Shown here in pieces: positions 4,695 to 34,932 of a stretch of DNA of 64,000 nt. Within the stretch, counting starts at the first letter, position 1, and each line of letters opens with the position of its first letter. This stretch comes from Alteromonadales bacterium alter-6D02 (GTDB lineage Bacteria; Pseudomonadota; Gammaproteobacteria; Enterobacterales; Psychrobiaceae): assembly GCA_002835545.1 (NCBI GenBank), contig PIZK01000007.1:1-64000 (forward strand), in the 5' to 3' direction. A program made the translations under genes and the position numbers. The notes under the pieces are model-generated. The model was not told the origin of the DNA, searched no databases, and saw only the letters and a program-made list of their open reading frames with translations.

Positions 4695-4772
4695 CTAACT
4701 CTCAAATCCATCAAAATAAGCCATAATCGTTAGCGCGATTATAACCCGTTAATCAAAAATACCAATAACTAC

Positions 4773-19846: not shown

Positions 19847-21046
19847 ATGATAATCAAGCCTAAAATTCGTGGTTTCATCTGTACCACTACTCATCCAACT
19901 GGCTGTGAAGCAAACATTAAGCAGCAAATTGAATTTACCAAAGCGCAACCAAAATTAGAAAATGCACCTAAAAATGTATTAGTGATTGGTTCTTCAAGCG
20001 GCTACGGTATGCCATCACGTATCAGTGCAGCTTTTGGCGGCGGCGCTAACACCATTGGTGTTTTCTTTGAAAAAGCGGGTACTGAACGTAAAACAGGTAC
20101 TGCGGGTTATTACAACGCTGCGGCTTTTGATAAAGCGGCTCATGAAGCTGGCTTATACGCAAAGAGCTTTAATGGCGACGCCTTCTCACACGAAGCAAAA
20201 GCGAAAGTTATTGAAACAATTAAAGAAGACTTAGGTCAAATCGACTTAATCATCTATTCTCTTGCTGCACCAGTACGTAAACTACCTGACAGCGGTGAAG
20301 TGATTCGTTCTTGCCTAAAACCTATTGGTGAAACATACACTTCTACAGCAATCGACACCAACAAAGACACTATTATTGAAGCGTCAATCGAGCCAGCAAC
20401 ACAAGCTGAAATTGATGACACGGTTACAGTAATGGGCGGTGAAGATTGGGAATTATGGGTTAACACGCTACACGAAGCGGGCGTTTTAACTGATGATTGT
20501 AAAACAGTTGCCTACAGCTACATCGGTACTGAGCTTACTTGGCCTATCTATTGGGATGGCGCATTAGGTAAAGCTAAGGAAGATTTAGATCGTGCAGCAT
20601 CAGCATTGAACACTAAGCTTTCAAGCACTGGCGGTCAAGCTAACGTTGCTGTATTAAAATCTGTAGTAACTCAAGCAAGTTCAGCAATTCCTGTTATGCC
20701 ACTATACATCTCAATGGCATTTAAAGTGATGAAAGAACACGGTATTCACGAAGGCTGTATGGATCAAGTGTTCCGTTTATTTAGTACTAAACTTTACACC
20801 AATGAGCAAAACATCGAGACTGATGATAAAAATCGTTTCCGTCTTGACGACTGGGAACTGCGCGATGACATTCAACAAGCGTGTCGCGATATTTGGCCAC
20901 AAGTCACCAGCGAAAACATTTTCGAACTAACCGACTACGCTGGTTATAAGAAAGAGTTCTTACAATTATTCGGCTTTGAAGTTGACGGTGTTGATTACGA
21001 CGCTGATACTAACCCACAAGTTGAATTTGACGTTATCGATATTTAA
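19847..21046 (+). CDS. fabV: trans-2-enoyl-CoA/ACP reductase FabV
   Basis: NADH-dependent enoyl reductase that completes each round of fatty-acid elongation; triclosan-tolerant alternative to FabI. 399 aa, full length. The N-terminus [12 protein letters not shown] is typical, followed by the dinucleotide motif GSSSGYG at 48-54. The catalytic Y-x8-K is Y235 and K244. GGEDWELW also matches the family. It lies far from the fab cluster at 44.8-50.4 kb, and no fabI is visible in the window. A strong terminator follows. Its last ~50 bp and the downstream 425 bp are duplicated at 24.95 and 26.62 kb, and cassettes begin just after this region. Confidence 0.97.
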
Positions 21047-21471
21047 TCGATTCGTTAACTGCTCTACAAAAGTTTCACAGTCATTGTGAAGTGACCCCCA
21101 GCCATTGGACATTCCGATGACTGGGGGTCTTTTTGTATTAAAGTATCAAAGGGGTTAATTGAACACTCACGAAGCGAACTCAGCAAATACACCCTCTCTC
21201 GACTAGCTACAGAGATAATTTTTCTAACCAACCTCCTTTACTCACTTTATCGATAAAAAAACCTCATTAAACACTAGCTTTATATACAGCCCTTTAGGTT
21301 TATTACAATTTGCAGCATTAACATACTTTTTTGACAGCTAATAAGAGGAAAGAAATAGCGAGAAACATATAATTAATTGTAATAAAAGCATATTTACGCT
21401 AAGTTTCTCTTTTAAAATCGGCTACGCGAGACGAACAAATATCGCGGTCGTCGCCGTACAATAAGCTGTTA
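20998..21471 (+). repeat. fabV-tail repeat, copy 1 (native), ending at cassette junction GTTA
   Basis: Covers the last 49 bp of fabV, its terminator and a ~330-bp AT-rich leader with no ORF, ending ATAAGCTGTTA. Copies 2 (24949-25421) and 3 (26624-27128) match it over this whole length, roughly nine bases in ten by eye. All three diverge immediately after GTTA, where a different cassette starts each time. Just upstream of the junction an imperfect inverted repeat (TACGCGAGACGA / TCGTCGCCGTA) could fold. The junction therefore behaves like an integron recombination point (G^TTA), attI-like or attC-like. Confidence 0.85.
21093..21135 (+). terminator. fabV rho-independent terminator
   Basis: GACCCCCAG (21093-21101) pairs perfectly with CTGGGGGTC (21121-21129), followed by TTTTT. 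It is conserved, with changes, in both downstream fabV-tail copies. Confidence 0.88.
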
Positions 21472-21519
21472 GCACTACAGGCAGGGTTAATCACAATCTG
21501 ATGAAAAGTTTTATACATA

Positions 21520-22725
21520 ATGTTATTTGATAAAGATCGTCACGAACCTCTCACCAAAACCTCATGGGATAAAAATATTGTGCAGGCAGAAATATCGTCA
21601 ATTATCGATGATATTCAGCGCTCACTATTACCTGATGCTTGTTGGCCCACGCATCCACTTGATGCAGAAAGCTACCCTAGAGTTGGGCCTAAATGGTCCG
21701 CATACGCAGGGGCTGCAGGCACAATTCACGCTTTACAAATCCTTAACGAATATGGATATAAAGTAAATGATTTGTCAGGGTTAATTGAAGGTGTTTACCA
21801 GTCTTTTTTGAAAACACCTGATGTATCAGTAGAGCCGGGCTTACAAATAGGTGAACTCGGCATACTAATGCCCGCAATGTTAGTGCAACCTGATAATGAA
21901 AAATTATCAAGACTAGTTATGCGATGCATGGAAGATACTATAGATCTTCCTCTGTATGAAATAACTTCTGGACAAAGTGGAATGATGCATGCTGCCCTAG
22001 CTCTTTATCGGAAGTCGGGTAAAAGTCATTGGAAAGATTTGTTTGTTAAGGGCGCAAAGTCATTAATGGATAACTGGACACAAGATACCGAGACGGGCGA
22101 ATGGCTTTGGCAAAGCCAAGTATTTGGGCCTAAGCGGCATTATTATGGTGCTTGCCATGGTATAACTGGCAATGCCAATATTCTTTTACAAGGCGCTGAT
22201 TTATTACCCGAGGGTTACACCGAAATGATAATTAAGCGTACGGTTGCTACTTTAAATATTTCAGTAAAACAAAAAGATAACTTAGCAAATTGGACGCTCT
22301 GTACTAAACCAAATATTGATAAATTGCTTGTTCAATGGTGTCACGGAGCAGCAGGTGTTGTTACAGCAATGTCAAGAACACCAGCGATTGATTCACCTGA
22401 ATCTAAACTACTTGATGAGTTGTTAGACGAAACGGGGGAGCTAGTTTGGCAAGCAGGGCCTCTCCTAAAAGGTTCTAATATCTGTCATGGGACATCTGGT
22501 AACGGTTACGCCTTTTTGTATTTGTACCAAAAAACGGGGAAGTCGGTATGGCTTGAGAGAGCAAGAAAATTCGCAATGCACTCTATTGAGCAGTGCCAGA
22601 AAGCACGCTTGCATTACGGGCAAGGCCGATTTACCTTATGGACTGGAGACGCTGGGCTTGCAATATATTTATATCATTGCATGTATCCTGAAAAAGCGGC
22701 TATACCGGGCTTGGATTTATTTTAA
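21520..22725 (+). CDS. LanC-like (lanthionine synthetase C family) protein, cassette gene
   Basis: 401 aa, an alpha/alpha-barrel LanC-like protein. All three zinc ligands are present: C274 (WCHG), C322 and H323 (CHGTSG). A further CHG occurs at 212-214. LanC enzymes add Cys thiols to dehydroamino acids; stand-alone homologues (LanCL-like) can act on glutathione or damaged proteins. No LanB, LanM or precursor peptide gene is nearby, so lantibiotic synthesis is unlikely. First cassette of the array: it begins 49 bp after the GTTA junction and is followed 8 bp after its stop by an attC. No strong ribosome-binding site is visible. Confidence 0.85.
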   Translation: MLFDKDRHEPLTKTSWDKNIVQAEISSIIDDIQRSLLPDACWPTHPLDAESYPRVGPKWSAYAGAAGTIHALQILNEYGYKVNDLSGLIEGVYQSFLKTPDVSVEPGLQIGELGILMPAMLVQPDNEKLSRLVMRCMEDTIDLPLYEITSGQSGMMHAALALYRKSGKSHWKDLFVKGAKSLMDNWTQDTETGEWLWQSQVFGPKRHYYGACHGITGNANILLQGADLLPEGYTEMIIKRTVATLNISVKQKDNLANWTLCTKPNIDKLLVQWCHGAAGVVTAMSRTPAIDSPESKLLDELLDETGELVWQAGPLLKGSNICHGTSGNGYAFLYLYQKTGKSVWLERARKFAMHSIEQCQKARLHYGQGRFTLWTGDAGLAIYLYHCMYPEKAAIPGLDLF

Positions 22726-22733
22726 GTATATAG

Positions 22734-22832
22734 TGCTAACAAGCTGTTAAACAAGGACAAAAACAGTTGGTTTTTGCTCCTTCGTCGCTTATTTTAATCA
22801 ACTATTTTTTGCCTGTTAACAGGGCGTTATGT
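22734..22832 (+). repeat. attC-like site 1 (~99 bp class)
   Basis: R''-like TGCTAAC at 22734 and R' GTTATGT at 22826-22832. The arms AACAAGCTGTTAAACA..CAAAAACAGTTG and CAACTATTTTTTGCC..TGTTAACAGGGCGTT pair with the unpaired spacer and bulges typical of VCR-like attC hairpins. It follows the LanC-like cassette gene. Confidence 0.85.
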
Positions 22833-22860
22833 GCCAGTAAGGATCGGAGATTACAGATAA

Positions 22861-23352
22861 ATGTCAGTAAAGAATATCAATGACAGGATCCCTTCCTACA
22901 AAAAAGCGTTTGCTAGCGGGGAAATACAAGAAATTTATCAAAGCCTTGTTGGGAGAATACAAGGTCTCAGAACAGAGTTTAATAAAAACTATAAGGGGCA
23001 ATTTTCGGTTGCAAATATACTACACGGCTATATCGACTTTACTTACTTTTATTTGCAAAACGATTTCCTTAAAAAACGTAAGCTCAAATTGGCAATTGTG
23101 CTTAATCACCAAGAAGCACGTTTCGAGTTATGGCTGCTGGGTCAAACAAAAGATGTACAGATCAACTATTGGAAAAAGTTACAGGGTGTTAGTTGGGTAA
23201 ACGAAAACTTAATGCCAGAGTGGTCTATCTTTGAAATTGTCATGCTTGCTAACCCAGATTTTGACAATCCCAAGGTTTTATCAGATTCTATTCAAAGTAA
23301 ATTTAATACTTTGTCAGAAGAGATTTTTGAAGTATTGAAAAAATATGAGTAA
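22861..23352 (+). CDS. uncharacterised cassette protein (163 aa)
   Basis: 163 aa, no signal peptide or TM segment, mixed alpha/beta composition with motifs GYIDFTYFY and ARFELWLLGQ. I do not recognise a characterised family; it resembles hypothetical proteins common in integron cassettes. The weak GGAG-like (GATCGGAG) is 12 nt before the ATG. The gene lies between attC 1 and attC 2 in the cassette orientation. Confidence 0.8.
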   Translation: MSVKNINDRIPSYKKAFASGEIQEIYQSLVGRIQGLRTEFNKNYKGQFSVANILHGYIDFTYFYLQNDFLKKRKLKLAIVLNHQEARFELWLLGQTKDVQINYWKKLQGVSWVNENLMPEWSIFEIVMLANPDFDNPKVLSDSIQSKFNTLSEEIFEVLKKYE

Positions 23353-23355
23353 TGC

Positions 23356-23410
23356 ACATAACAAACAAGAATAGGTGTCGCGCAGCCGACACCTTATTCG
23401 GGTGTTGGAC
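23356..23410 (+). repeat. attC-like site 2 (55-bp class)
   Basis: R'' ACATAAC (23356-23362) and R' GTTGGAC (23404-23410, fits GTTRRRY). Between them GAATAGGTGTCG pairs with CGACACCTTATTC, with a one-base bulge. Nearly identical sites occur at 26190, 28286 and 30180. Confidence 0.8.
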
Positions 23411-23984
23411 AAGCCCGAAGCCCTTCTTTTTATAGTAAATAGTGCAAGGTGTACCAGTGGTGATCAAGCCTAAATAATAAACTCAAGCCAAGTCGTGTTA
23501 GTGCATAACGTGTGTTCACGTTATATCAAGTGGTTAGCTATTTTTAGTTGTTGTTCTTCTCATATTGCTCCTCTCATTTTGTTGATGCCATTCTCCTTAT
23601 TCTCGGTATCGCTTAGCTGGTTCGCGTGATGCCACTTCAGTGGCAACAAGGACAAATGCGTTTAGCGCGTGGTGGTGTCGGTTGGAATAATTAAGGGACA
23701 TGCATTAATTTCCCTCTTCTCACTGGGCTTGTAATTATGGTGATATGTTTATGCCTGTCTTTTATTTCTTTCTGTGACGGGACGCACCTCGCGGACATAA
23801 GCATCAATGGTTGATGGGCGTTTACCTAGCACGCGAAGGTTGGTAAGATATTGTTGATAAAGGGTATTAAAGCGTTGTTGTTCGGCGGTGTTCATCGTGA
23901 TGTCTCCAGTTAAAACGCACCAAGTGGTGGTTTATCTGGTTAAGTATGAACAACCGCGAGTATACTCTGCCGCGGAGCGGCTTC
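23411..23984. mobile_element. decayed IS91-type element remnant (copy A)
   Basis: 574 bp between two attC sites. The left part (23411-23620) matches 26245-26380, which flanks a recognisable IS91 transposase C-terminus, and includes the sequence just beyond the transposase stop. Around 23665-23690 a scrap with the same TGGTGGTGTCGGTTG string remains. The right part holds the tyrosine-recombinase fragment. There is no intact gene. I infer an IS91-family insertion that lost most of its transposase. Confidence 0.6.
23749..23895 (-). pseudogene. N-terminal fragment of a tyrosine recombinase
   Basis: 48-aa minus-strand frame beginning MNTAEQQRFNTLYQQYL and containing LRVLGKRPSTIDAYVREVR, the N-terminal SAM-like DNA-binding segment of phage/IS91-linked integrases. 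It stops before any catalytic Arg/Tyr region, so it is non-functional. A similar start region recurs at 29465-29565. Such integrase genes commonly sit next to IS91-family transposase genes. Confidence 0.6.
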
Positions 23985-24086
23985 GTTCAACAAGAATTTA
24001 AAGCGGGACTGCTAACAGTTTGCTCGGTTTCGCTACGCTACACAATTTTAGCAAACTATTATCAGTCCCTTAAATGGGCGTTATAC
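23985..24086 (+). repeat. attC-like site 3 (~100-bp VCR-like class)
   Basis: R'' GTTCAAC (23985-23991) and R' GTTATAC (24080-24086). AATTTAAAGCGGGACTG..AGTTTGCT pairs with AGCAAACT..CAGTCCCTTAAAT, with extrahelical bases and a ~25-nt loop. Almost identical to site 6 at 27802. It precedes the esterase cassette. Confidence 0.85.
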
Positions 24087-24102
24087 GCAAAACGGAGTTT
24101 GG

Positions 24103-24939
24103 GTGAAATTTCTACCTTATATTTTCATATTTCTTTTCATTAATTCTATTCAATTAGTCAAAGCTCAAGATAGAAATACCTTTGAAATTCCTCGAAGTAA
24201 TGTTATCGAGATTCAAGATCCTGATTCCGGAAGGGTTTACCCTCTTTTTATAAAATTACCACGCTCATATAACAGCCAAGAAGATAAGTCATATCCTGTT
24301 ATCTACTTAACCGACGCATGGTATAGTTTCCAAATTGTATCTGGCGCTACTAGATTTCCAATGAATACAGGAAAAATGAAAGAGGCAATAATTGTCGGGA
24401 TTTCATACTCAAAAGGATCTAAAGGCCCCTCTAGTCGGATTCGTGACTATACTCATACTGAAGATTCAAGCTGGAAGTTTCAAACAGGAAAAGCGAAAGA
24501 ACATATTAGTTTTATTGAAAAGTCAGTTTTCCCTTTCATTGAAAAAAACTACAGAGTAAATGAATCTAGGACTTTTGTTGGTAATTCACTTGGTGGACTA
24601 TTTGGGGCATACATATTATTTACTAAACCTGATATGTTTAATAATTATGTCCTAGGCAGCCCATCTGTTTGGTTTAAAGATAATGATATTCTTAAAATTA
24701 AAACAGATCCTAATTTAAATAAGCACAAGGTGTTTATTGCTGTTGGTGCTAATGAGACTATTCAACTGGATTCGCCAAAACACGACATGGTTAAAGGTGC
24801 AAAGGAACTTGAGTTGAAGCTATCAGGTGAATTATTCCCTAATACAAAAGTAAAGCTATTAACTATTCAAGGCGCAAATCATGAAACTGCGTTCCCAACT
24901 ACTGCAATTCAAGGGTTGTATTGGCTGTTCAAAGAGTAG
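24103..24939 (+). CDS. secreted alpha/beta-hydrolase esterase (Fes/EstD-like), cassette gene
   Basis: 278 aa. A signal peptide (hydrophobic 3-19, VKA-Q) precedes an esterase-D-fold hydrolase: FVGNSLGGLFGAY carries the nucleophile Ser, and GANHETAFP supplies the C-terminal His. Relatives hydrolyse siderophores or peptides linked by esters; the substrate here is unknown. Start is GTG at 24103 with GGAG 5 nt upstream. It follows attC 3, but no attC follows: fabV-tail copy 2 begins 10 bp after its stop, so the cassette's own attC has been lost and integrase could not excise it alone. Confidence 0.85.
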   Translation: MKFLPYIFIFLFINSIQLVKAQDRNTFEIPRSNVIEIQDPDSGRVYPLFIKLPRSYNSQEDKSYPVIYLTDAWYSFQIVSGATRFPMNTGKMKEAIIVGISYSKGSKGPSSRIRDYTHTEDSSWKFQTGKAKEHISFIEKSVFPFIEKNYRVNESRTFVGNSLGGLFGAYILFTKPDMFNNYVLGSPSVWFKDNDILKIKTDPNLNKHKVFIAVGANETIQLDSPKHDMVKGAKELELKLSGELFPNTKVKLLTIQGANHETAFPTTAIQGLYWLFKE

Positions 24940-24948
24940 TGATAATTG

Positions 24949-25421
24949 CGACGCTGATACTAACCCACAAGTTGAATTTGACGTTATCGATATTTAATCG
25001 ATTCACTAACTGCTCTATAAAAGTTTCACAGTCATTGTGAAGTGACTCCCAGCCATTGGACACCCCGATGATTGGGGGTCTTTTTTTATTAAACTATCAA
25101 AGGGGTTAATTGAACACTCACGAAACGAACTCAGCAAATACACCCTTTCTCGACTGGCTACAGAGATAATTTTTCTAACCAGCCCCCTTTACTCACTTTA
25201 TCGATAAAAATTACATTGAACACCGGCTTTACATACTGCCCTTTAGGTTTATTACAATTTGCAGCATTAACATACTTTTTTGGCCGCTAAGTAAGAAGAA
25301 AGAAATAGCGATATACATATAATTGCTTGTAATAAAAATATATTTGCGCTAAGTTTCTCTTTTAAAATCAGCTACGCGAGACGAACAAATATCGCAGTCG
25401 TCGCCGTACAATAAGCTGTTA
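24949..25421 (+). repeat. fabV-tail repeat, copy 2
   Basis: Begins within the fabV coding end (ACGCTGATACTAACCC), keeps the last 48 coding bases and the terminator (25044-25087, one weakened pair), and runs to ATAAGCTGTTA at 25421. It is truncated from fabV, so it encodes nothing. It shares several variants with copy 3 and not with copy 1 (for example AAAAATTACATTGAACACCGG and TTTTGGCCGCTAAG), so copies 2 and 3 are closer relatives. Confidence 0.88.
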
Positions 25422-25439
25422 GGTACTCAGGGAAGAATT

Positions 25440-25883
25440 ATGCAATCCAAAGTATATAGATCGTTAGCTTTAGCATTTTCATTTGGTGTTATTTTTTATG
25501 CTCTATTGGTTACAGCTTGGGGTTATATCCCTCTATTTAATCCTATAACTAATTGGTTATTAGATAACTTTGCAGGTTATCAATGGATTAGTGCATTGAT
25601 TTATTTTCACGATTTTATACTAAATATTGTGTTGGGCTTTCCTTTGGCACTCTTAATTCATGTGCTAAAACCTAAGCGTTATTTATTGTATTTAGCGGTT
25701 GCTCTTTTGCCCGCTTTTATTTGGTCAAATAGCGCTTGGATCAATAATCCAAGTTTTTATGAGCATTGGACTTCAATTGTTATAGGGTGGGCAACAAGTC
25801 TTTTTAGTGTGCCAATAGCATTGTTTATAATTTGTTGGTATAACAAACACGTACCTAACAAGGGCATTAATCGGATTCCGTAA
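25440..25883 (+). CDS. four-TM membrane protein, cassette gene
   Basis: 147 aa, about four TM segments (9-28, 45-72, 83-97, 115-137), no recognised family. It begins 19 bp after the fabV-tail copy 2 junction, with GGGAAG 4 nt before its ATG. It is followed after 6 bp by a lipoprotein gene in the same cassette, so this cassette carries two genes. Confidence 0.75.
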   Translation: MQSKVYRSLALAFSFGVIFYALLVTAWGYIPLFNPITNWLLDNFAGYQWISALIYFHDFILNIVLGFPLALLIHVLKPKRYLLYLAVALLPAFIWSNSAWINNPSFYEHWTSIVIGWATSLFSVPIALFIICWYNKHVPNKGINRIP

Positions 25884-25889
25884 GCAGTC

Positions 25890-26195
25890 ATGTTTCGTGT
25901 AATATTTTCGTTCGTGATTATAATCTTAATTTTTGGTTGTAGTGATTCAACTCAACAACTTACTCCAAAAATGGAAAAAATGGCTACTCAAACTGTCATT
26001 AAATATTTAGAACGAAATGATTTACCGAATGAGAATTTGGTTGTATCAATATCAAAAAATAGAGCTATTGCCGATTTTTCATTCATGTATACAGGCAGTG
26101 GGCGTTGTATTAATTTTATTGTTAAGTGTTATGGAAATGACTGTACTAGTTTGCAAAAATATCCGTACGATGAGCACGGAGAAAAGTGCCCATAA
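25890..26195 (+). CDS. small lipoprotein, cassette gene
   Basis: 101 aa with a lipoprotein signal (hydrophobic 4-15, lipobox IFGC, Cys17). The mature part has several Cys (RCINFIVKCYGNDC), suggesting disulfides in the periplasm. No known family. The stop codon lies inside the R'' box of the following attC, a usual cassette arrangement. Function unknown; it probably shares a transcript with the membrane protein upstream. Confidence 0.7.
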   Translation: MFRVIFSFVIIILIFGCSDSTQQLTPKMEKMATQTVIKYLERNDLPNENLVVSISKNRAIADFSFMYTGSGRCINFIVKCYGNDCTSLQKYPYDEHGEKCP

Positions 26196-26244
26196 CAAAC
26201 AAGAATAGGTGTCGCGCAGCCGACACCTTATTCGGGTGTTGAAC
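26190..26244 (+). repeat. attC-like site 4 (55-bp class)
   Basis: R'' CCATAAC (26190-26196), R' GTTGAAC (26238-26244, fits GTTRRRY). The hairpin arms are the same as in site 2. The downstream ~35 bp (AAGCCCGAAGCCCTTC...) also match those after site 2. Confidence 0.8.
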
Positions 26245-26370
26245 AAGCCCGAAGCCCTTCCTTTTATAGTAAATAGTGCAAGGTGTTCACGTGATATCAA
26301 GTGGTTAGCTATTTTCAGTTGTTGTTCTTCTCATATTGCTCCTCTTATTTTGTTGATGCCATTCTTCTTA

Positions 26371-26622
26371 TTATCGGTACCGCTTAGCGCGTGGTGGTGT
26401 CGGTTGAGGGGCTGGAACGAGCCAGTATGTTAGCGATAACAACAGGCTGAGGATACGCAAGCGTAAGGCTTTGGCGTTACCGTGTAAAAAACCGTAATCA
26501 CGTACTCGCTGTAACCCCTTAGGCAGCACATGCTGCAAGATAAGCCATAAAAACTTGAGTGTAGGTAAGGTACGATACTTACGTGTTTTCGTTTGACTGT
26601 CTTGGTCGCTAAATGTCACGGT
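26371..26622 (-). pseudogene. C-terminal fragment of an IS91-family transposase
   Basis: Minus-strand frame with YRTLPTLKFLWLILQHVLP and GLQRVRDYGFLHGNAKALRLRI, the C-terminal signature of IS91-type (Y2, rolling-circle) transposases. It ends PRAKRYR at 26371. The N-terminal catalytic part is missing. The frame runs on to an ATG at 26646, but its first eight codons are antisense to the fabV fragment, so the junction at about 26623 is a breakpoint. IS91 elements can mobilise flanking DNA by one-ended transposition, which may explain how a fabV tail came to lie here. Confidence 0.8.
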
Positions 26623-26623
26623 A

Positions 26624-27128
26624 GACTGGGAACTGCGCGATGACATTCAACAAGCGTGTCGCGATATTTGGCCACAAGTTGAATTTGACGTTATCGATAT
26701 TTAATCGATTCGCTAACTGCACTACAAAAGTTTCACAGTCATTGCAAATTGCCCCCCAGCCATTGGACACTCCGATGACTGGGGGTCTTTTTTTATTAAA
26801 GTATCAAAGGGGTTAATTGAACACTCACGAAACGAACTTAGCAAATACACCCTCTCTCGACTGACTACAGAGATAATTTTTCTAACCAGCCCCCTTTGCT
26901 CACTTTATCGATAAAAATTACATTGAACACCGGCTTTACACTCTGCCCTTTAGGTTTATTACAATTTGCAGCATTAACATACTTTTTTGGCCGCTAAGTA
27001 AGAAGAAAGAAATAGCGATAAACATATAATCGCTTGTAATAAAAACATATTTACGCTAAGTTTCTCTTTTAAAATCAGCTACTCGAGACGAACAAATATC
27101 GCAGTCGTCACCGTACAATAAGCTGTTA
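26624..27128 (+). repeat. fabV-tail repeat, copy 3 (longer, with internal deletion)
   Basis: Starts further inside fabV than copy 2, matching fabV from 20849. It jumps from the first CCACAAGT (20897) to the second (21014), a clean 117-bp deletion between 8-bp direct repeats. It then follows the tail, the terminator (near 26750-26795) and the leader to AAGCTGTTA at 27128. It adjoins the IS91 transposase fragment on its left and a new cassette on its right. Confidence 0.88.
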
Positions 27129-27145
27129 TTTCGCTAGTGAGATTT

Positions 27146-27370
27146 ATGGACGACGTTGAGATTAAATTAACAAAGGATGAAGCATTAGTGCTTTTTGATT
27201 TCCTCTCACGTTTTTCCAACGAAGATAAATTGAGTATTCATGACAAAGCAGAGGAACGCGCATTGTGGAACCTAACCTGTTTATTTGAAAAGTCTCTTCC
27301 TGAGCCTTTTTCTAAAGAGTGGCAATCCATAATTGAAGGTGCGAGAAATAGACTGCGAGATGATACATAA
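27146..27370 (+). CDS. small acidic cassette protein (74 aa)
   Basis: 74 aa, starting MDDVEIKLTKDEALVLFDFL and rich in Glu/Asp, predicted helical, no TM segment. It resembles short hypothetical proteins widely found in cassettes and genomic islands. I chose the ATG at 27146, with GTGAG 4 nt upstream, over an in-frame GTG at 27137. First gene after fabV-tail copy 3. Confidence 0.75.
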   Translation: MDDVEIKLTKDEALVLFDFLSRFSNEDKLSIHDKAEERALWNLTCLFEKSLPEPFSKEWQSIIEGARNRLRDDT

Positions 27371-27375
27371 TCGCG

Positions 27376-27485
27376 AAATAACAAGCCCATGAAGGCTGAT
27401 TCGCAACGCTGTCACATTGATTGAAGAGAACAAAAGGCGCAATCAATACGCCAGCATTGCTCTCGGCTTATAGGGGCGGTATATT
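27376..27485 (+). repeat. attC-like site 5 (~110 bp, degenerate R')
   Basis: R'' AAATAAC (27376-27382). The right end GGGGCGGTATAT departs from GTTAT. The arms AACGCTGTCACATTGATT and AATCAATACGCCAGCATT pair well around a ~17-nt loop, and GGCTGA pairs imperfectly with TCGGCTTAT. Structure supports an attC with a mutated R' box. Confidence 0.65.
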
Positions 27486-27499
27486 TACGAGGAGATTCA

Positions 27500-27796
27500 G
27501 TGTTTTATTTCAAGCTCTATGATGACAAAAGGCTAAAAGATCTCAAGCATAGTAAGAAAATCGAGATCGTAAATAACGCAGTTAAGCTATATAGAAAAGA
27601 CAAACCATTAAATATCACTAGCCGATTATTAACCGTGTTAATTTGGTGTGGTATTCCTTCTTTAATATTATTTTTAGTATTCAGTTTCAGCTTTGCTATT
27701 GGTTGGCTTGCTCTATCCACATTCATCCTTAATATCAAATTAGCTAATGATGAAAGCGCAGATGTCGAAACTTACCTAAATCAGGTGTTAGAGTAA
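27500..27796 (+). CDS. small membrane protein, cassette gene (98 aa)
   Basis: 98 aa starting at GTG 27500, with GAGGAG 5 nt upstream. A basic N-terminal helix (1-45) is followed by one or two TM segments (46-80) and a short acidic tail. No known family. Lies between attC 5 and attC 6. Confidence 0.75.
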   Translation: MFYFKLYDDKRLKDLKHSKKIEIVNNAVKLYRKDKPLNITSRLLTVLIWCGIPSLILFLVFSFSFAIGWLALSTFILNIKLANDESADVETYLNQVLE

Positions 27797-27801
27797 TGTA
27801 A

Positions 27802-27903
27802 ATATAACAAGAATTTAAAGCAGGACTGCTAACAGTTTGCTCAGTTTCGCTTCGCAACACAATTTTAGCAAACTATTAGCAGCCTCTTAAATGGGCGTTA
27901 TGA
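27802..27903 (+). repeat. attC-like site 6 (~100-bp VCR-like class)
   Basis: R'' ATATAAC (27802-27808), R' GTTATGA (27897-27903). Arms, bulges and loop are almost the same as in site 3 (TTTAAAGC..GGACTGCTAA..AGTTTGCT / AGCAAACT..TTAGCAG..TTAAA). The most clear-cut attC of the array. Confidence 0.88.
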
Positions 27904-27937
27904 ATTTTTATTATTTAACTATACAAGGGATGTAAAG

Positions 27938-28291
27938 ATGTCTGAATTAGAAACAACAATTAGCTTATCTAGCAAAGATGATGCAGCGAAAACCAATGCT
28001 CTTATAGCTTACGGGCTCATGGGAGTTGGACTTTTTACTGGCATATTTTGGGTTATTGGCGCTATTTGGGCAATGGTAAAAAAAGATGATGCTGTAGGCA
28101 CTCTCTTTGAAGATCATTATTCAAATATAATTAATATTTTTTGGTGGGGTCTAGGGCTATCTATCATTGGCTTTATTCTTCTATTTTTTGTTGTTGGCTA
28201 TTTTGTTTTATTAGCCGTTTGGTTCTGGTCTGTTTATAAGTTAATAAAAGGCTTTTCTAAAATAACTTCAAACAAACCGTACAATTCATAA
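27938..28291 (+). CDS. DUF4870-like membrane protein, cassette gene
   Basis: 117 aa with about three TM segments. KTNALIAYGLMGVGLFTGIFW, the VKKDDAVGTLFEDHYSNII loop and the Trp-rich FWWGLGLS match the Tic20/DUF4870-like small membrane family. Function unknown. AAGGG lies about 8 nt before the ATG. The stop codon overlaps the R'' of attC 7. Confidence 0.78.
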   Translation: MSELETTISLSSKDDAAKTNALIAYGLMGVGLFTGIFWVIGAIWAMVKKDDAVGTLFEDHYSNIINIFWWGLGLSIIGFILLFFVVGYFVLLAVWFWSVYKLIKGFSKITSNKPYNS

Positions 28292-28340
28292 CAAACAAGA
28301 ATAGGTGTCGCGCAGCCGACACCTTATTCGGGTGTTGGAC
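28286..28340 (+). repeat. attC-like site 7 (55-bp class)
   Basis: R'' TCATAAC (28286-28292), R' GTTGGAC (28334-28340), same hairpin as sites 2 and 4. Right after it, 28341-28375 resembles the left arm of site 1 (GTTAAACAAAGGGCACAAAACAG), as if another attC half had fused here. Confidence 0.8.
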
Positions 28341-28381
28341 AAGCCCGTTAAACAAAGGGCACAAAACAGCAGGCTTGTGAA

Positions 28382-28528
28382 ATGTTAGAGTTAAAAAGTA
28401 ATATTGTATTTTTCAGTTCAAATAATAGCTGGATTCAGTTTTTTGCTTTTATGTTGGTGTTTGTTCCTGTTCATTTAGTTTTGACTTTAATATTCAAAAA
28501 GCTGGGTGTTTTGAAAACGAATAATTAA
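28382..28528 (+). CDS. possible 48-aa single-TM cassette protein
   Basis: Short frame MLELKSNIVFFSSNN... with one strongly hydrophobic stretch (19-41) and a basic C-terminus. No good ribosome-binding site and no family. Its stop overlaps the start of an IS remnant, so it may be a truncated gene. Cassette position and orientation are the main support. Confidence 0.4.
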   Translation: MLELKSNIVFFSSNNSWIQFFAFMLVFVPVHLVLTLIFKKLGVLKTNN

Positions 28529-28652
28529 GGGGCAAGCATGAATTTCCCCCTTCTCACTGAGCTTGTAATTATGGTGATATGTTTGTGCCTGTCTTTTATT
28601 TCTTTCTGTGATAGGAAGCACCGCGCGCGTATACTCTGTCACGAGCGGCTTC
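28522..28652. mobile_element. decayed IS91-type element remnant (copy B)
   Basis: AATTAAGGGGCA to TTTCTGTGATAGG matches 23690-23780 and 29353-29450. It then joins directly to the GTATACTCTG..GCGGCTTC segment that also precedes attC 3. The recombinase start region is deleted here. Non-coding. Confidence 0.55.
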
Positions 28653-28752
28653 GTTCAACAAGCGCTTCAAAAATGACGTCAAACGCTTGGCTGACGCTCA
28701 TTCTTCGCTAATTATAGCCAAGCATTATCCGCAATTTATGCGGGCGTTATGT
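28653..28752 (+). repeat. attC-like site 8 (~100 bp)
   Basis: R'' GTTCAAC (28653-28659), R' GTTATGT (28746-28752). CAAACGCTTGGCT pairs with AGCCAAGCATTAT, the outer arms less perfectly, with a ~25-nt loop. It precedes the GNAT cassette. Confidence 0.75.
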
Positions 28753-28829
28753 GCCCAGATATTTACTCCGAGAGTTGTCAACCTTACAAAATGTTGTAGG
28801 CAAAATCTCCAATATAGAAAGGAATTTAA

Positions 28830-29315
28830 ATGTACAAAATTCGTCAAGCTATGAAAGAAGACATTAGCCGTATGGCTGAAATAGAAGAAATTTGCTTTTC
28901 CGAGTCTGAAGCTGCGCCATTAGAGTCATTTAAAAAACGATTTTCAGCTTTTCCTGAATGTTTTTTTGTACTTGAGAGTGGTGGTATTGTTGTTGGTCAC
29001 ATTAACGGCTGTATCTACAATGCTCCGGAACTTCCTGATGCGTTGTATTCTGATAGTAATCTTCATTGCCCTCAAGGTGGATACCAAACTGTATTTGGTT
29101 TGGCAGTTGACCCTGAATACCAAAACCTAGGGTATGCATCGGCACTTATCAAATATTTTATTGCGTTTAGCCAAAACCGCAAACATAAAGGTATGGTACT
29201 TACTTGTAAAGATCACCTTGTTAAGTTTTACCAAAGCTTTGGATTTATTCATCAAGGTGTGTCGGATTCAAGTCATGGCGGTGCCCAATGGAATGATATG
29301 CTGTTAACTTTTTAA
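28830..29315 (+). CDS. GNAT-family N-acetyltransferase, cassette gene
   Basis: 161 aa. GNAT fold: the beta4-alpha3 acetyl-CoA motif is FGLAVDPEYQNLGYASALI (Q-x-x-G-x-A), then KFYQSFGF near the C-terminus. N-terminal RQAMKEDISRMAEIEEICFSESEA resembles arylalkylamine-type GNATs. The substrate is unknown; possibilities include polyamines, antibiotics or aromatic amines. GAAAGGA lies 6 nt before the ATG. Preceded by attC 8 and followed by a damaged attC. Confidence 0.85.
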   Translation: MYKIRQAMKEDISRMAEIEEICFSESEAAPLESFKKRFSAFPECFFVLESGGIVVGHINGCIYNAPELPDALYSDSNLHCPQGGYQTVFGLAVDPEYQNLGYASALIKYFIAFSQNRKHKGMVLTCKDHLVKFYQSFGFIHQGVSDSSHGGAQWNDMLLTF

Positions 29316-29336
29316 ATTAAGGCTCACACAATGAGC

Positions 29337-29689
29337 ACATAACAAACAAGAATCGAATAATTAAGGGGCAGGCAGGAATTTCACCCTTCTCACTGAGCTT
29401 GTAATTTTGGTGATATGATTATGCCTGTCTTTTATTTATTTCTGTTATACGACGCCCCGCGCGAATATAAGCCCCCATGGGTGATGGGCGTTTACCTAGC
29501 AAGCAAAGGTTGATAAGATGTTGTTGATAAAGGGGATTAAAGCATTGTTGTTCGGCAGTGTTCATTGCGAGTGCTCCAGTGATAGACCACTGACAGGTGG
29601 CCAGTCTGGATTAAGCACGAACAACTGCGCTGGCGCTCGTTCCTCGCTAATTTAGCCAAGTATAACCCACATTTCCTGCAGCGTTATGT
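29337..29689 (+). mobile_element. IS91-type remnant (copy C) between a left and a right attC half
   Basis: 29337-29354 is the left end of a 55-bp-class attC (ACATAACAAACAAGAAT), abruptly replaced by the AATTAAGGGGCA element (to about 29450) and the recombinase start region (minus, ATG at 29565). 29620-29689 is the right half of a long-class attC ending GCGTTATGT. The halves belong to different classes, so this is a rearranged junction, not one attC simply split by an insertion. Confidence 0.6.
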
Positions 29690-29708
29690 ATTTAGAAGAG
29701 TTCATTTG

Positions 29709-30176
29709 ATGTTTCAAAATTTGTTAAGAGCAGTTGTCATCTTGTTTTGTCTTTCAGGTTGTGCCGAAAGAGTCATCGATATTACTGATAAAGACGGTGA
29801 AGTCATCGGTGGTTGTAAAGCTGGTTTTGACTGGCACTTTTACGGCCTTCAAGACTCTATTGATTATATGCTTTATGAGTGTGCTAAAGACTCTATAGCA
29901 AAAGGGTTTACAATATCAGATGACAGGCTTCTAACCCTTGATTTCACTTTACCCTCACCGCCAGAAGGTGAGTTGTGGAATAAGAAACTCGCGATGCATC
30001 ATTTCCATAAAGAAAATATCACTGAAAGAGAACTAGGTTATATTCTTGCTGCTATAGAAAACGAGTATCAAAAAGTTGCTTGGCCAGCTGAAGATGATTT
30101 GGCAAGTGGTAAAATTACCAAGACTGAATTTATAAAAATAATTAAAGAAGCCAAATTCAAATGGCTTGGTGAATAA
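29709..30176 (+). CDS. lipoprotein of unknown function, cassette gene
   Basis: 155 aa from the ATG at 29709 (a TTG lies 3 nt upstream). Lipoprotein signal with lipobox LSGC (Cys about 18). The mature protein is mainly helical and charged, with Cys pairs; no family recognised. Last clear cassette gene: it is followed 3 bp after its stop by attC 9. Confidence 0.75.
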   Translation: MFQNLLRAVVILFCLSGCAERVIDITDKDGEVIGGCKAGFDWHFYGLQDSIDYMLYECAKDSIAKGFTISDDRLLTLDFTLPSPPEGELWNKKLAMHHFHKENITERELGYILAAIENEYQKVAWPAEDDLASGKITKTEFIKIIKEAKFKWLGE

Positions 30177-30179
30177 AAC

Positions 30180-30234
30180 ACATAACAGACAAGCATCGGT
30201 GTCTCGTAGCCGTCACCTCATTCGGGTGTTGGAC
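30180..30234 (+). repeat. attC-like site 9 (55-bp class), last of the array
   Basis: R'' ACATAAC (30180-30186), R' GTTGGAC (30228-30234). Arms CATCGGTGTC and CGTCACCTCATTC are more diverged than in the other 55-bp sites. The following ~40 bp still match the sequence after sites 2 and 4. Confidence 0.7.
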
Positions 30235-30703
30235 AAGCCCAGAGCCCTTCCCTTTATAATAAATAGTGAGGTGGGGCCAGTGATGAATAATCTAAGTGAT
30301 TAAGCTCAGCTTTTGTTTCAAACAATGCAGATGATGCCGGAGGCAACCGTACTATCTTTTTTAACTTTTAACATCTCAATATTTTATAAACAAAGTCTTA
30401 AACAAGCCCCAATAAATCATTAAAGTGACATATAACCATAATCGCTGGTACAACTCGACAGACAGAAGATAGCACCGGGTTACAACAGAACAACATCAAT
30501 GAATTAACCCTCAAAAACTGTGAGGTGAAATTAGCAACCTTTGAGGACGATTCAAACAACAAAGTAAAAATGACTTTTTCTGACCGTGTATTTGTCGCCG
30601 ATAGCATTTCTGTTAAACCTAGCCCTGATGGCCATTGCCATGTGAAACTATCAAACGGTTACAGTGAAACATAACGCAAGCAATTAGAAAACAAGGAGAT
30701 TCT
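30235..30703. other. array boundary region
   Basis: 469 bp after the last attC. The first ~45 bp repeat the post-attC segment. 30429-30674 is an open plus-strand frame (82 codons, ending VKLSNGYSET) without any start codon at its head, looking like the tail of a broken small exported protein. Nothing else is recognised. Confidence 0.45.
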
Positions 30704-31096
30704 GTGCTCAAATCTATCCATCACGTCGCTATCATTTGCTCAGATTATCAAAAATCTAAGCATTTTTATGCCTCAATTCTTGGCCTCGAAGTGATCGCTG
30801 AAAGTTATCGAGAAGAGCGTGACTCCTTTAAGCTCGATTTAAAGTTACCCGATGGTGGCCAAATTGAGCTATTTTCTTTTCCTAATTCACCTGATAGGCC
30901 AAGTTTTCCAGAAGCGCTTGGTTTAAGGCATTTGGCATTCAATGTCGAGTCAGTCGAGTGCGTTAGAGATTACCTGCTAGCTCATGGTTTGGATGTAGAG
31001 CCCATTAGGATAGATGAATTTACCCAGCGAAAATTTACTTTTTTTAGAGACCCCGACGGACTTCCATTAGAGTTATATGAGCAAGTTGACGGTTAA
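30704..31096 (+). CDS. gloA2: VOC-family protein, GloA2/YaeR-like
   Basis: 130-aa vicinal-oxygen-chelate (glyoxalase I fold) protein, close to E. coli YaeR (GloA2) throughout: HHVAII at the start, FYASILGLEV, the YREERDSFKLDL stretch, IELFSFP, GLRHLAFNV, and TFFRDPDGLPLELYEQ. The metal-binding His/Glu set is present. The exact substrate is unproven in this family. Start is GTG 30704 with AAGGAGA 5 nt upstream. Single gene right of the cassette array. Confidence 0.88.
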   Translation: MLKSIHHVAIICSDYQKSKHFYASILGLEVIAESYREERDSFKLDLKLPDGGQIELFSFPNSPDRPSFPEALGLRHLAFNVESVECVRDYLLAHGLDVEPIRIDEFTQRKFTFFRDPDGLPLELYEQVDG

Positions 31097-31187
31097 CATT
31101 CAAAGTGACAAGCAACAGGGGACACGTTCAGTGCCCCCTTAATATACATAATACATGATGCATTAATGTGTAAACTGGCAGCCAAAG

Positions 31188-31931
31188 CTACTTTACTAAA
31201 TGATTGTCTAACCAATTGACGATATTACTGCCTAACATGGTATCGCTATCTAATAACGGATAGCCATGCTCGCTGCCTTTATAAGAAATCAATTTGCTAC
31301 TCATGTTTGTCGACGCAGTAAACAATTGTTGAGCACTTTCATAAGTGCGGGTATCTTTCTCTGAGGCAATAATCAGCGTGGGTTTATCAGCTAGGTTATT
31401 CTTATAGTGAGTAATATTTTCCTTTCGTTGAGCTGAAGAAAAGAAAGCTATTGCATTAACCGAGTTATTTTTCGCTAATGTAATTGCTTGAGAGCCACCA
31501 CAACTTGCACCAACAACCCCAACGATGCTCTCTTTTGGCATTTTACTTTTTAGTGTATCGTAAGCTAATTGCACGTCTTGAGGCCAATGAGCATACATTT
31601 CTTGTAAAACTTTTGTTTGCTCTTCTCTTGGTAATGCTTCAACTTTTGCTTGTGTGAATTTGCCCTTGGCACTGTCACCATAGCCTCTAAAGTCTAGGCT
31701 TAATGCATGAATCCCCCGGTTCGACAATTGCTGCCCGATCTCGTTATACATAGTTCGATTGTAATTACACTGATGTAATAACAAAACGCCACGATTACTT
31801 GTGGTATTACTTTGGTAATAACTTGCTGCTAGCTCAAAGCCTTCGTCAGTCGTGACTGTAATATCCTGAGCTTGACTTGAAACTGATACCGCAAATAAAC
31901 CGATAGACATCATTTTTATAAGTTCATTCAT
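31188..31931 (-). CDS. secreted alpha/beta hydrolase (dienelactone-hydrolase-like)
   Basis: 247 aa with a signal peptide (MNELIKMMSIGLF...SSQAQ). Core: LLLHQCNYN (oxyanion region), GASCGG nucleophile elbow, SEKDTR Asp, and SEHGYPL His. Function unknown; similar proteins act on small esters or peptides. The start at 31931 is chosen because AGGAAAG sits just upstream and the signal peptide begins there; the frame is open to 31958. Confidence 0.85.
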   Translation of the reverse strand: MNELIKMMSIGLFAVSVSSQAQDITVTTDEGFELAASYYQSNTTSNRGVLLLHQCNYNRTMYNEIGQQLSNRGIHALSLDFRGYGDSAKGKFTQAKVEALPREEQTKVLQEMYAHWPQDVQLAYDTLKSKMPKESIVGVVGASCGGSQAITLAKNNSVNAIAFFSSAQRKENITHYKNNLADKPTLIIASEKDTRTYESAQQLFTASTNMSSKLISYKGSEHGYPLLDSDTMLGSNIVNWLDNHLVK

Positions 31932-32424
31932 AAACTTTCCTGTTTGTTGTATTGACACTTTTATTGTTCTTAAATCGTTTTGAAGATGTTAAGCCTTTCT
32001 TAGCAAGGTCTAAACCTAAGCAAAGTCTGAGCCAATACAATATTCCCTTAAATTTCAGTTGATTATAGTGTTATTTTTATTTTATAACCCCACCGATGTC
32101 CGGTAACGGACTTTTTTAGGCCTCTTAGTCTCATTTTCGGACTTGTCGTTAAAAAACTAGCATTAAGGTTAGCCTATGGTTGCCGCGTAATAACATCGGC
32201 CATTAGCTATTGTCTTAGGGGTATCACGGTCAAAATAAGTTACATAAGTATGCTTAAGTTCGTATTAAATAGATTTAAATACAAACAATTAAGGGCTCGA
32301 TGTGTTTCATCGTTTCAAGCGGATTACTGTTTGCCGTGACCAACATTGCATAGTAAATTATATGTTCTGCTAACCTCGCCAGTTCAGCTGTTTTTGAAAC
32401 ATACGAAACGAATAAGGAGATACG
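31932..32424. other. intergenic region, nothing recognised
   Basis: 493 bp between divergent genes. I see no ORF, attC or clear hairpin. AAGGAGA just before 32425 is the ribosome-binding site of the next gene. Confidence 0.5.
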
Positions 32425-33126
32425 ATGGGTGCTTGGGATGAAACGGCTTTAGGTAATGATGACGCGCTAGATTTTAAAACCCAATGGGATGATTTTATTG
32501 CAGATAATATTCAACGCTGGGGAGCCGAAAAAATTTATCGCTTTTATAAGGATATCTACTATGACGGGAAAATACCCAGTGATGACTTGGACTATAGCAA
32601 TGAGATTATCGCGCTAGGTCAGCTCTTTTTAGATAACGAGCTCGAGATCCCCAAAGCCTTAGTGCACGAGATATCTATCGTAGTTACGTTAAATCTAGAT
32701 CCTGATGAGCTTGACGAGTGGAATAGTCCGAGTAAAAGACGAACGTTTTTAAAAGGCTATCTTAACGAGATTGGTGGAGAGTTTAATAAATCGCTTATCA
32801 AAGAGTTGCATAAACCTGAAATTGAAAAATATAAAAATGAAATCAAAAACTATCGATTATTTTTTGAAAACATTGATGAAATAGTTCAAGTTAGAAAAAC
32901 CATGAAAAGCAGCACATTTGATTTAGTGAATAGCTTATACCCAGACATCGCAAAGACGTTGGATGAAATCTATGCACCATCGACGCCAGGAACTTATCGT
33001 TTTACCCTTGAAGTTGAAGCGTGGCGAACCAAGTTTATTGCATGGTGGACAGGTTTTATTCTAGAGTTGGAGCCTGAAGAAGTAATAAAGCTAATCGATG
33101 CTGCTGAACGAAAAAATACTACTTAA
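32425..33126 (+). CDS. hypothetical protein with DUF4259-like N-terminus
   Basis: 233 aa, soluble and acidic. MGAWDETALGNDDALDF matches the start of DUF4259 proteins (MG.W....NDDALD). The remainder, helical with an FTLEVEAWRTKFIAWWTGF segment, is not recognised. AAGGAGA lies 6 nt before the ATG. Function unknown. Confidence 0.75.
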   Translation: MGAWDETALGNDDALDFKTQWDDFIADNIQRWGAEKIYRFYKDIYYDGKIPSDDLDYSNEIIALGQLFLDNELEIPKALVHEISIVVTLNLDPDELDEWNSPSKRRTFLKGYLNEIGGEFNKSLIKELHKPEIEKYKNEIKNYRLFFENIDEIVQVRKTMKSSTFDLVNSLYPDIAKTLDEIYAPSTPGTYRFTLEVEAWRTKFIAWWTGFILELEPEEVIKLIDAAERKNTT

Positions 33127-33642: not shown

Positions 33643-33741
33643 GTTAAAAATAAGTTACTTTAGTCTCTATGCAGCTAAGGTAATCTGCGTTAAATTAATT
33701 GACTCTTGATTATAGAAAAAGATTCAGCAAGGAAATTCATT

Positions 33742-34932
33742 ATGTTAGAACACTTGTCGGCGCTGCCAGCAGATCCTATCTTAGGCCTTTTAAAAGCTTA
33801 TGGCCAAGACACTAACCCAAACAAAGTCGACTTGGGTGTTGGTGTATTCAAAGACGATGCAGGCCACACGCCAATCCTTGCCTGCGTTAAAACCGCTGAA
33901 CAGTTCCGTATTGATAACGAAACATCAAAAATTTATATCGGCCCAACGGGTGAACCAGAGTTTAACCGCTTAATCAGCGAGCTTGTTTTTGGTGAGCACG
34001 ATGTGATTAGTCAAAATCGCAGCCGCACTCTGTCAACACCGGGCGGTACTGGTGCATTACGTGTTGCTGGCGAATTTATTAAAGCCTGTAAACCAAACGC
34101 TACCATCTGGCTAAGTAATCCGACATGGGCCAACCATGAAGGCTTGTTTAGTGCGGCTGGGTTAAACATCGCTAGCTACCCATATTATGATTACGAAAAT
34201 AAATGCTTAGATTTTGACGGCATGCTTAGCGCATTAAGCAATGTACCTGCAGGTGATATCGTATTACTTCACGCTTGTTGTCACAATCCAAGTGGTATGG
34301 ACTTAACCAAAGAACAATGGCAACAAGTCACCGCTTTAGCCAAGGAAAAGGGCTTCACTCCTCTGATTGATATGGCCTACCAAGGCTTTGGCCAAGGACT
34401 GGAAGAAGATGCATACGGGCCACGTTTAATGGCTAAAGAACTCGATGAAGTCTTGTTGTGTACGTCTTGTTCGAAAAACTTTGGTCTTTATCGTGAACGA
34501 ATCGGTGGCTTTACGTTAGTCGCTAAAAACAGCAATGTGGCTGATATTGCCTATTCTGTGGCTTTATCTGTGGTACGTAGTATCTATTCTATGCCACCAG
34601 CGCATGGCGCGGCTATTGTTAGCACGATTTTAAACTCTGACGAGCTCACTGGCCAATGGCATCAAGAGCTTGCTCAAATGCGTGATCGTATTGCCACAAA
34701 CCGCCAATTATTGGTTGAACACTTAAAGCTACAGGGCGTTGAGCGTGATTTTAGCTTTATTACCCGTCAATCAGGGATGTTCTCTTTCCTCGGCATTACC
34801 CCTGAGCAAGTCGCGACCCTGATCAATGACTACAGTATTTATATGGTGGATTCTAGCCGTATCAGCATTGCTGGTATTAGTAAAACCAATGTAGAGTACT
34901 TGGCTCAATCAATCGCTAAGGTCATCAAATAA
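33742..34932 (+). CDS. aspartate/aromatic aminotransferase (class I, AspC/TyrB type)
   Basis: 396 aa, exactly the usual AspC length, from the ATG at 33742 (AAGGAA 7 nt upstream; the frame is open to 33706). PLP-dependent transfer of the amino group between aspartate or aromatic amino acids and 2-oxoglutarate. LPADPILGL, TPGGTGALRVAGE, CHNPSGMDLT, DMAYQGFGQGLEEDA and CSKNFGLYRERIGG (PLP Lys) fit. Sequence is closer to AspC than to E. coli TyrB, but substrate preference cannot be decided. Confidence 0.93.
   Translation: MLEHLSALPADPILGLLKAYGQDTNPNKVDLGVGVFKDDAGHTPILACVKTAEQFRIDNETSKIYIGPTGEPEFNRLISELVFGEHDVISQNRSRTLSTPGGTGALRVAGEFIKACKPNATIWLSNPTWANHEGLFSAAGLNIASYPYYDYENKCLDFDGMLSALSNVPAGDIVLLHACCHNPSGMDLTKEQWQQVTALAKEKGFTPLIDMAYQGFGQGLEEDAYGPRLMAKELDEVLLCTSCSKNFGLYRERIGGFTLVAKNSNVADIAYSVALSVVRSIYSMPPAHGAAIVSTILNSDELTGQWHQELAQMRDRIATNRQLLVEHLKLQGVERDFSFITRQSGMFSFLGITPEQVATLINDYSIYMVDSSRISIAGISKTNVEYLAQSIAKVIK

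Follow-up and report, generated by a model that had tools for sequence, protein, structure and literature searches.

An integrase-less cassette array beside fabV in Alteromonadales bacterium alter-6D02, with the probable attI and promoter of a second integron lineage and IS91-family insertions in its attC sites

How does an array of integron cassettes come to lie beside fabV with no integrase gene in sight? The question is raised by a 64,000-nucleotide stretch of Alteromonadales bacterium alter-6D02 (contig PIZK01000007.1, positions 1 to 64,000; hereafter the window), part of contig C43 in a draft genome of 3.99 Mb and 45 contigs (G000). Here, short same-strand genes separated by cassette recombination sites (attC) follow fabV. 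Comparing sequences, we consider it likely that the locus is a cluster of attC sites lacking an integrase (CALIN) that derives from a second, type-B integron platform, one that would have lost its integrase gene (intI-B) and kept its cassette promoter (Pc) and attachment site (attI-B), and that an insertion sequence (IS) of the IS91 family has invaded its attC sites.

Results

We compared the locus with 395 genomes of the order (9 congeners of the same genus; 385 genomes outside it). tyrB follows fabV within ~150 bp in eight of the nine congeners, whereas the window's own tyrB (at 33742) is 12.7 kb from fabV, so that the array reads as an insertion between the two; three non-cassette genes (30704–33126) also occupy this interval. 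A covariance model (R1), built from 13 aligned attC of the integrase-linked integron on contig C8 with the window sequence excluded, identifies four strong attC (E 1e-15 to 1e-19) and one weak attC (E 3e-4) between 22.7 and 28.8 kb, all on the + strand. The next-best match in the 64 kb (E 0.005 at 15581) is probably chance. Genome-wide the model finds 38 attC, most on C8 and at other contig ends, the pattern that fragmentation of a single long array by the assembly would give. Judged by these matches, the cassette array is real.

One intI alone in the genome exceeds the TIGR02249 cut-off of 265, with 384.6 bits. Located on C8 at 207946–208884, it is intact and heads a long cassette array, the genome's only intact integron (type A). 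No intI occurs in the window, nor any intI remnant left of the fabV leader. Without an intI beside its attI the locus falls short of a complete integron, and we class it as a CALIN with an intact integrase elsewhere in the genome, on C8. A weak intI-like fragment with two stops (G000:C23:220659-220826, 24.9 bits) is possibly a mere XerC/D-like remnant. Rfam, searched at gathering thresholds, returned nothing.

Much of the initial annotation is borne out. It had described short, diverse cargo downstream of fabV (LanC-like, DUF7000, esterase, GNAT and small membrane- or lipoprotein-like open reading frames (ORFs) are what we find), attC of shared polarity and no intI in view; the covariance search it proposed returned significant sites (E 3.2e-19 to 2.9e-4), and its worry that the junctions might be ordinary intergenic DNA fixed in relatives is answered by the fabV–tyrB adjacency above. 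Its ten attC-bearing junctions are not all intact attC: R1 finds five attC in the array, and four of the junctions are of its '55-bp class', with a deleted copy of that class at a further one. Its two options, a CALIN or an integrase elsewhere, turn out to apply together, but three leaders joining fabV 3′ ends to an attI and promoter, a conserved platform of another IntI lineage, had been missed.

The first cassette is preceded by a 472-bp stretch of which the window holds three copies (21000–21472, 24949–25422 and 26624–27128). It ends in a 35-nt motif (AAATATCGCGGTCGTCGCCGTACAATAAGCTGTTA) with 11 occurrences in 4 of the 395 genomes, all of this genus; the 385 other genomes hold none, and a reversed-pattern control gave 0. 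In genome G001 (G001:C105) the same motif and leader adjoin a second kind of intI (type B), 58–71% identical to relatives in G004 and G008 and 46% to the C8 enzyme. Because of this adjacency we read the motif as the attI of a type-B integron: a conserved GTTR-ended site, beside intI-B in G001:C105, at which cassettes start, with 11 cassette-side copies. The 12 type-B leaders (the G004 variant left out) all carry the putative cassette promoter with its 17-bp spacing, TTG[GT]NN-N17-TANNNT, 84–95 nt before GTTA, a pattern expected in ~1% of shuffles per leader and chosen after the alignment had been seen. The leader as a long attC was ruled out, its bottom-strand fold giving z ~0 for three copies. 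In G002 the type-B intI (L178, G002:C202) is in two pieces (profile 1–210 and 199–315, ~230 bp between) beside hflC, and may be a pseudogene.

The platform occurs at several loci. The last ~217 bp of the leader also lie beside asnS on C4 at ~71% identity, and three congeners carry platforms with no neighbouring intI at ssb, groEL, nadA/tRNA-Ser, 6S RNA and elsewhere; platforms lie 3′ of these four and of fabV, and near asnS, a LysR gene and a tubulin-like gene (names read from translations, with a family test for fabV alone). Genes with attC come next at nearly all of them. No intI remnant was found within ~1 kb of the tested intI-less platforms (best tblastn match E 0.017, short and judged chance). 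A perfect LexA box is present in two intI-less leaders and two intI-linked ones (G001:C105 and G004:C123). RAYT-like (REP-associated Y1) transposase genes, recognized by eye, lie in or beside the asnS and groEL cassette regions (L034 10310–11290; L171, reverse strand, ~4100–5530 from the far end). In the asnS array an IS110-family-like transposase N terminus directly follows a truncated attC (L034 ~8660–9020), possibly an IS1111-attC-like scar.

The closest competitor to an origin in lost integrases, plausible though the less probable of the two, is that attI-B platforms spread as units within a genome, by a route not known, and are served in trans by one integrase. Genomes indeed hold two or three platforms at different core genes, the leader tree pairs fabV with asnS (88/89) and ssb with groEL (94/94), and the intI-less platforms lack intI remnants. 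Against this, other leaders do not cluster by genome, and two intI-less platforms retain the perfect LexA box expected had intI once been there. We do not take the leader phylogeny as proof of intragenomic spread, as it gives two supported pairs only.

We keep to integrase loss, in which the locus would have begun as a second-lineage platform with a LexA-controlled intI-B, Pc and attI-B, and would then have lost intI-B here while Pc and attI-B persisted. As both remain, the cassettes that stand first behind any of the three platform copies could still be transcribed. The attC of the array are of the type-A integron's kind, and the C8 integrase could in principle move cassettes in trans. Array segments starting in the fabV 3′ end would have been joined in tandem to give the three copies. 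Copies 2 and 3 start at different points inside fabV, and their joins show little homology or none. Copy 2 matches copy 1 at 92.6% in its non-coding part and at all 49 nt of fabV; in copies 2 and 3 the fabV parts (49, 56 and 33 nt) show no difference from copy 1, yet the adjoining non-coding DNA differs by 7–10%, a combination that suggests imported alleles of other strains rather than an ageing local duplication, as duplication and drift would predict about ten changes in the fabV parts. One-ended IS transposition finds no support as the source of the copies, there being no IS left of the original fabV 3′ end.

We turn to the 55-bp class, found at four junctions (23358, 26192, 28288 and 30182) with a deleted copy at a fifth (29339). 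R1 does not score this class, so its silence there is no test. The four copies share a hairpin and, mostly, the DNA to its right. The unit also occurs on C9, C37 and other contigs and is matched in 67 of the 395 genomes; a pattern scan found it in Colwellia, Psychromonas, Pseudocolwellia and Psychrobiaceae. In all ~40 contexts NTAAC, the R″ box of an attC, directly precedes the unit, with unrelated genes to the left and, in nearly all, the body of one IS to the right (one possible exception, L089). Full copies (L111, L117/L122, L121) measure 2.15–2.29 kb and carry two genes that run against the cassettes, one for a Y2 transposase of 354 aa that includes an IS91 zinc domain, the other for a tyrosine recombinase of 308 aa (PF00589). 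The L122 transposase matches PF04986 (E 4e-43) and PF14319 (E 3e-25), the Y2-plus-zinc-domain arrangement of the IS91 family. We conclude from these contexts that the 55-bp class is the origin-like (ori) end of an IS91-family element, not a second class of cassette attC as the initial annotation had it, and that, with an R″ box running into an element end, the attC at these junctions are split, truncated or degenerate. A search by eye for kinship of this ori to classical IS91, or to distant ends in E. coli and Vibrio plasmids, found nothing similar. At L089 (~421–480) the ori hairpin is followed by GTGTT and then unrelated DNA, the junction expected if IntI used the hairpin as attC.

The opposite (ter) end reads ..GCGGCTTCGTTCAAC, then AAG and the rest of an attC. 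By covariance model the attC is exactly in register at E ≤ 0.02 in 20 of 25 ter junctions; of the other five, two are weak and three have no model match (L081, L017 and a Photobacterium plasmid copy), although L081 still shows GCGTTAG. R″ is regenerated at the ter junction as GTTCAAC. Three pairs of occupied and empty sites (23992 with 27803; 28660 with L004:7952; L015, the C37 copy, with L004:2479) give exact insertion at the GTTR of R″, a shared G leaving the position of the cut ambiguous. These in-register junctions and uninterrupted attC place insertion between the NTAAC of R″ and AAG, just after the box and antisense to the cassettes, in ~10 genera. A Photobacterium ganghwense plasmid (NZ_CP071327.1; L166 1990–4300) carries a 53%-identical transposase with the same ends and GTTCAAC box, with compensating changes in the ori stem (AGCTGTCG/CGACAGCT), the insertion being at a GTTG that belongs to no attC. 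A related ter-like end (GTTGAACTAAACCGCTTCGCGGA) lies directly at the attI-B GTT in L136 (G004:C123, ~2668–2690) and in L155, forward, like a normal first cassette.

The likeness of attC and IS ori suggests how the target may be chosen. The attC bottom strand presents a hairpin followed by CTT-GTTR, and the IS ori a hairpin followed by TTCTTRTTT-GTTR. A Y2 transposase that recognizes its own ori would also accept the bottom strand of an attC once folded, and this would account for the insertions all having one orientation. Insertion at ..CTT^GTTR.. in R″ would join the old R″ to the IS ori and the remainder of the attC to an IS-supplied R″ (GTTCAAC). Both products are attC-shaped: on the left R″, the IS hairpin and GTTGGAC; on the right GTTCAAC brought by the IS, which matches RYYYAAC perfectly, followed by what is left of the attC. 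Transposition by rolling circle would fit the enzyme. The copies have by now decayed into the scars that were taken for a 55-bp attC class.

IntI might instead have placed the unit, as a reversed gene cassette, into R″, with the box in double-stranded form serving as a secondary, attG-like G^TT site. Read in its own direction the unit starts TTGAAC and ends GTCCAAC-hairpin-G|TTAG, both junctions fit a G^TT crossover, the G they share is compatible with IntI-driven reverse insertion, and the end in L136 is related and sits forward at attI-B. We nonetheless find this unlikely: every such insertion into R″ is reversed, where IntI would be expected to act mostly at attI or at attC R′ and forward, the unit has its own Y2 transposase and tyrosine recombinase, and the Photobacterium copy lies outside attC. 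That the CALIN simply holds two natural attC classes, of 55 bp and ~100 bp, the former ending ordinary cassettes, is very improbable despite RYYYAAC/GTTRRRY-like boxes, a bulged hairpin (fold z ~-2 to -2.7 in three of four) and positions after genes, because nearly always across genera the same IS91-family body stands right of R′ with an unrelated left flank, full copies of the 55-bp-ended unit carry a Y2 transposase and a recombinase and end in GTTCAAC and the rest of another attC, and the hairpin's extra unpaired base is, on our reading of the sequence, on the side where the opposite orientation would put it.

Features are collected in Table 1. The LanC-like gene is the first cassette behind Pc, and no lanthipeptide precursor or dehydratase was noticed nearby. 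A PADLOC search for anti-phage functions among the cassettes gave no match worth keeping.

Table 1. Host genes, platforms, attC, cassette genes and IS91-family remnants of the locus (window positions)
Feature	Position	Strand	Evidence or remark
fabV (trans-2-enoyl-CoA/ACP reductase), host gene left of array	19847..21046	+	PF12241/PF12242/PF07055
fabV intrinsic terminator, hairpin and T run	21093..21134	+	read from sequence
Leader copy 1: conserved attI-B platform (Pc, attI core ending GTTA)	21256..21471	+	aligned with 10 other leaders and intI-linked attI of G001:C105
Pc copy 1, TTGTAA-N17-TAAGTT	21377..21405	+	
attI-B core copy 1	21437..21471	+	pattern only in this genus
Cassette gene, LanC-like	21520..22725	+	PF05147
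attC, intact	22735..22831	+	R1 E 3.2e-19
Cassette gene, DUF7000	22861..23352	+	PF22526 E 2e-57
IS91-family remnant splitting attC: ori end 23363-23415, tyrosine-recombinase fragment, ter end	23363..23991	-	
attC, R″ from IS ter end	23986..24085	+	R1 E 3.6e-17; uninterrupted homologue at 27803, 93% identical
Cassette gene, esterase	24103..24939	+	PF00756; no attC remaining behind
Leader copy 2: fabV 3′ end, terminator, Pc (25327-25355), attI-B (25387-25421)	24949..25421	+	
Cassette gene, 147-aa membrane-like ORF	25440..25883	+	no family
Cassette gene, 101-aa lipoprotein-like ORF	25890..26195	+	no family
IS91-family remnant: ori end, Y2 transposase C-terminal fragment (ORF 26371-26646), cut by leader copy 3	26197..26623	-	PF04986 E 1.2e-12
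Leader copy 3: fabV fragments, terminator, Pc (27034-27062), attI-B (27094-27128)	26624..27128	+	
Cassette gene, 77-aa ORF	27137..27370	+	
attC, divergent, mutated R′ (GCGGTAT)	27377..27483	+	R1 E 2.9e-4
Cassette gene, 98-aa ORF	27500..27796	+	
attC, intact	27803..27902	+	R1 E 7.9e-19
Cassette gene, 117-aa DUF4870-like membrane ORF	27938..28291	+	below Pfam cut-off
IS91-family remnant splitting attC: ori end 28293-28345, inner stretch replaced	28293..28659	-	
attC, R″ from IS ter end	28654..28751	+	R1 E 9.3e-16; uninterrupted homologue L004:7952-8047
Cassette gene, GNAT acetyltransferase	28830..29315	+	PF00583
IS91-family remnant, ori hairpin deleted, fused to degenerate attC end (to ~29687)	29344..29627	-	
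Cassette gene, 156-aa lipoprotein-like ORF, last of array	29706..30176	+	
IS91-family ori-end remnant, right end of array	30187..30283	-	
tyrB-like aminotransferase, ancestral right neighbour of fabV	33706..34932	+	

Discussion

We favour a CALIN that descends from a type-B platform and was independently invaded at its attC by an IS91-family element. Several points weigh against this account. An attI-B beside its intI is seen complete in one example, G001:C105 (G004 being a variant), and the other intI-B contigs stop before attI; in draft assemblies an intI-B of the host genome G000 could be missed, though completeness is stated as 100. The IS copies in the window are deletion remnants with no intact copy among them, so the element is not currently active here, and its hairpin might itself serve as an ordinary attC. 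The weakest competitor for the platforms, that the type-A IntI dropped cassettes at random attG sites beside core genes and the shared leader is coincidental or regulatory, has very little chance of being right: multi-locus CALINs are known, for example in Xanthomonas (PMC12444791), and the window cassettes match the C8 attC kind, but eight or more loci preserve both the 35-nt site and Pc, which also stand beside intI-B and are absent from 385 other genomes.

A wider proposal is offered tentatively. The ori of the element may have evolved to mimic attC, so that the element targets the folded attC bottom strand, rebuilds an attC on both sides and becomes a cassette that IntI can excise and spread, while in this genus several attI–Pc platforms lacking intI may serve as additional docking sites for one integrase acting in trans.

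Beyond class 1, descriptions of attI sites are poor, and IntegronFinder does not look for such sites (PMC9024848); CALINs are consequently characterized mostly by what they lack. Here, comparison within the genus makes the probable docking site and promoter of a vanished integrase recognizable, so that one can test whether arrays of this kind still serve as secondary docking sites or are leftovers. A hairpin-ended element that can be mistaken for a homogeneous attC class would also inflate attC counts in marine Alteromonadales.

Like CALINs described elsewhere (PMC9024848, PMC9229058, PMC12444791), the array has at least two attC, no intI nearby and a complete integron elsewhere in the genome; unlike the usual CALIN it keeps an attI and Pc, assigned to a different IntI lineage, that stand in tandem three times together with fabV 3′ ends, and the genus has this platform at other loci as well. 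With sedentary chromosomal integrons, one of which is present on C8, it shares VCR-like attC of ~100 bp and short same-strand genes mostly of unknown function, but it differs in having no intI.

The element shares with the IS91 family (Y2/HUH rolling-circle elements, with a tyrosine recombinase in, for example, ISShvi3) the PF04986 and PF14319 transposase, asymmetric ends and an ori-like hairpin beside a GTTN target; it differs in lying near-exclusively in attC R″, with the attC shape regenerated on both sides. In the open-licence literature, a search of which is weak evidence, we found no report of such near-exclusive insertion, the nearest being ISShvi3 adjacent to attC in Shewanella, where no IS interrupted an attC (PMC9229058). 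Elements of the IS1111-attC group and class IIC-attC group II introns are also mobile and target attC (PMC3589745, PMC9229058). The introns insert opposite to the cassettes, as the present element does, but both groups use other enzymes (a DEDD transposase and a reverse transcriptase, respectively). Both interrupt attC and are not known to rebuild it on both sides. The IS91-family element would be a third kind of mobile DNA that targets attC, after IS1111-attC elements and group IIC introns.

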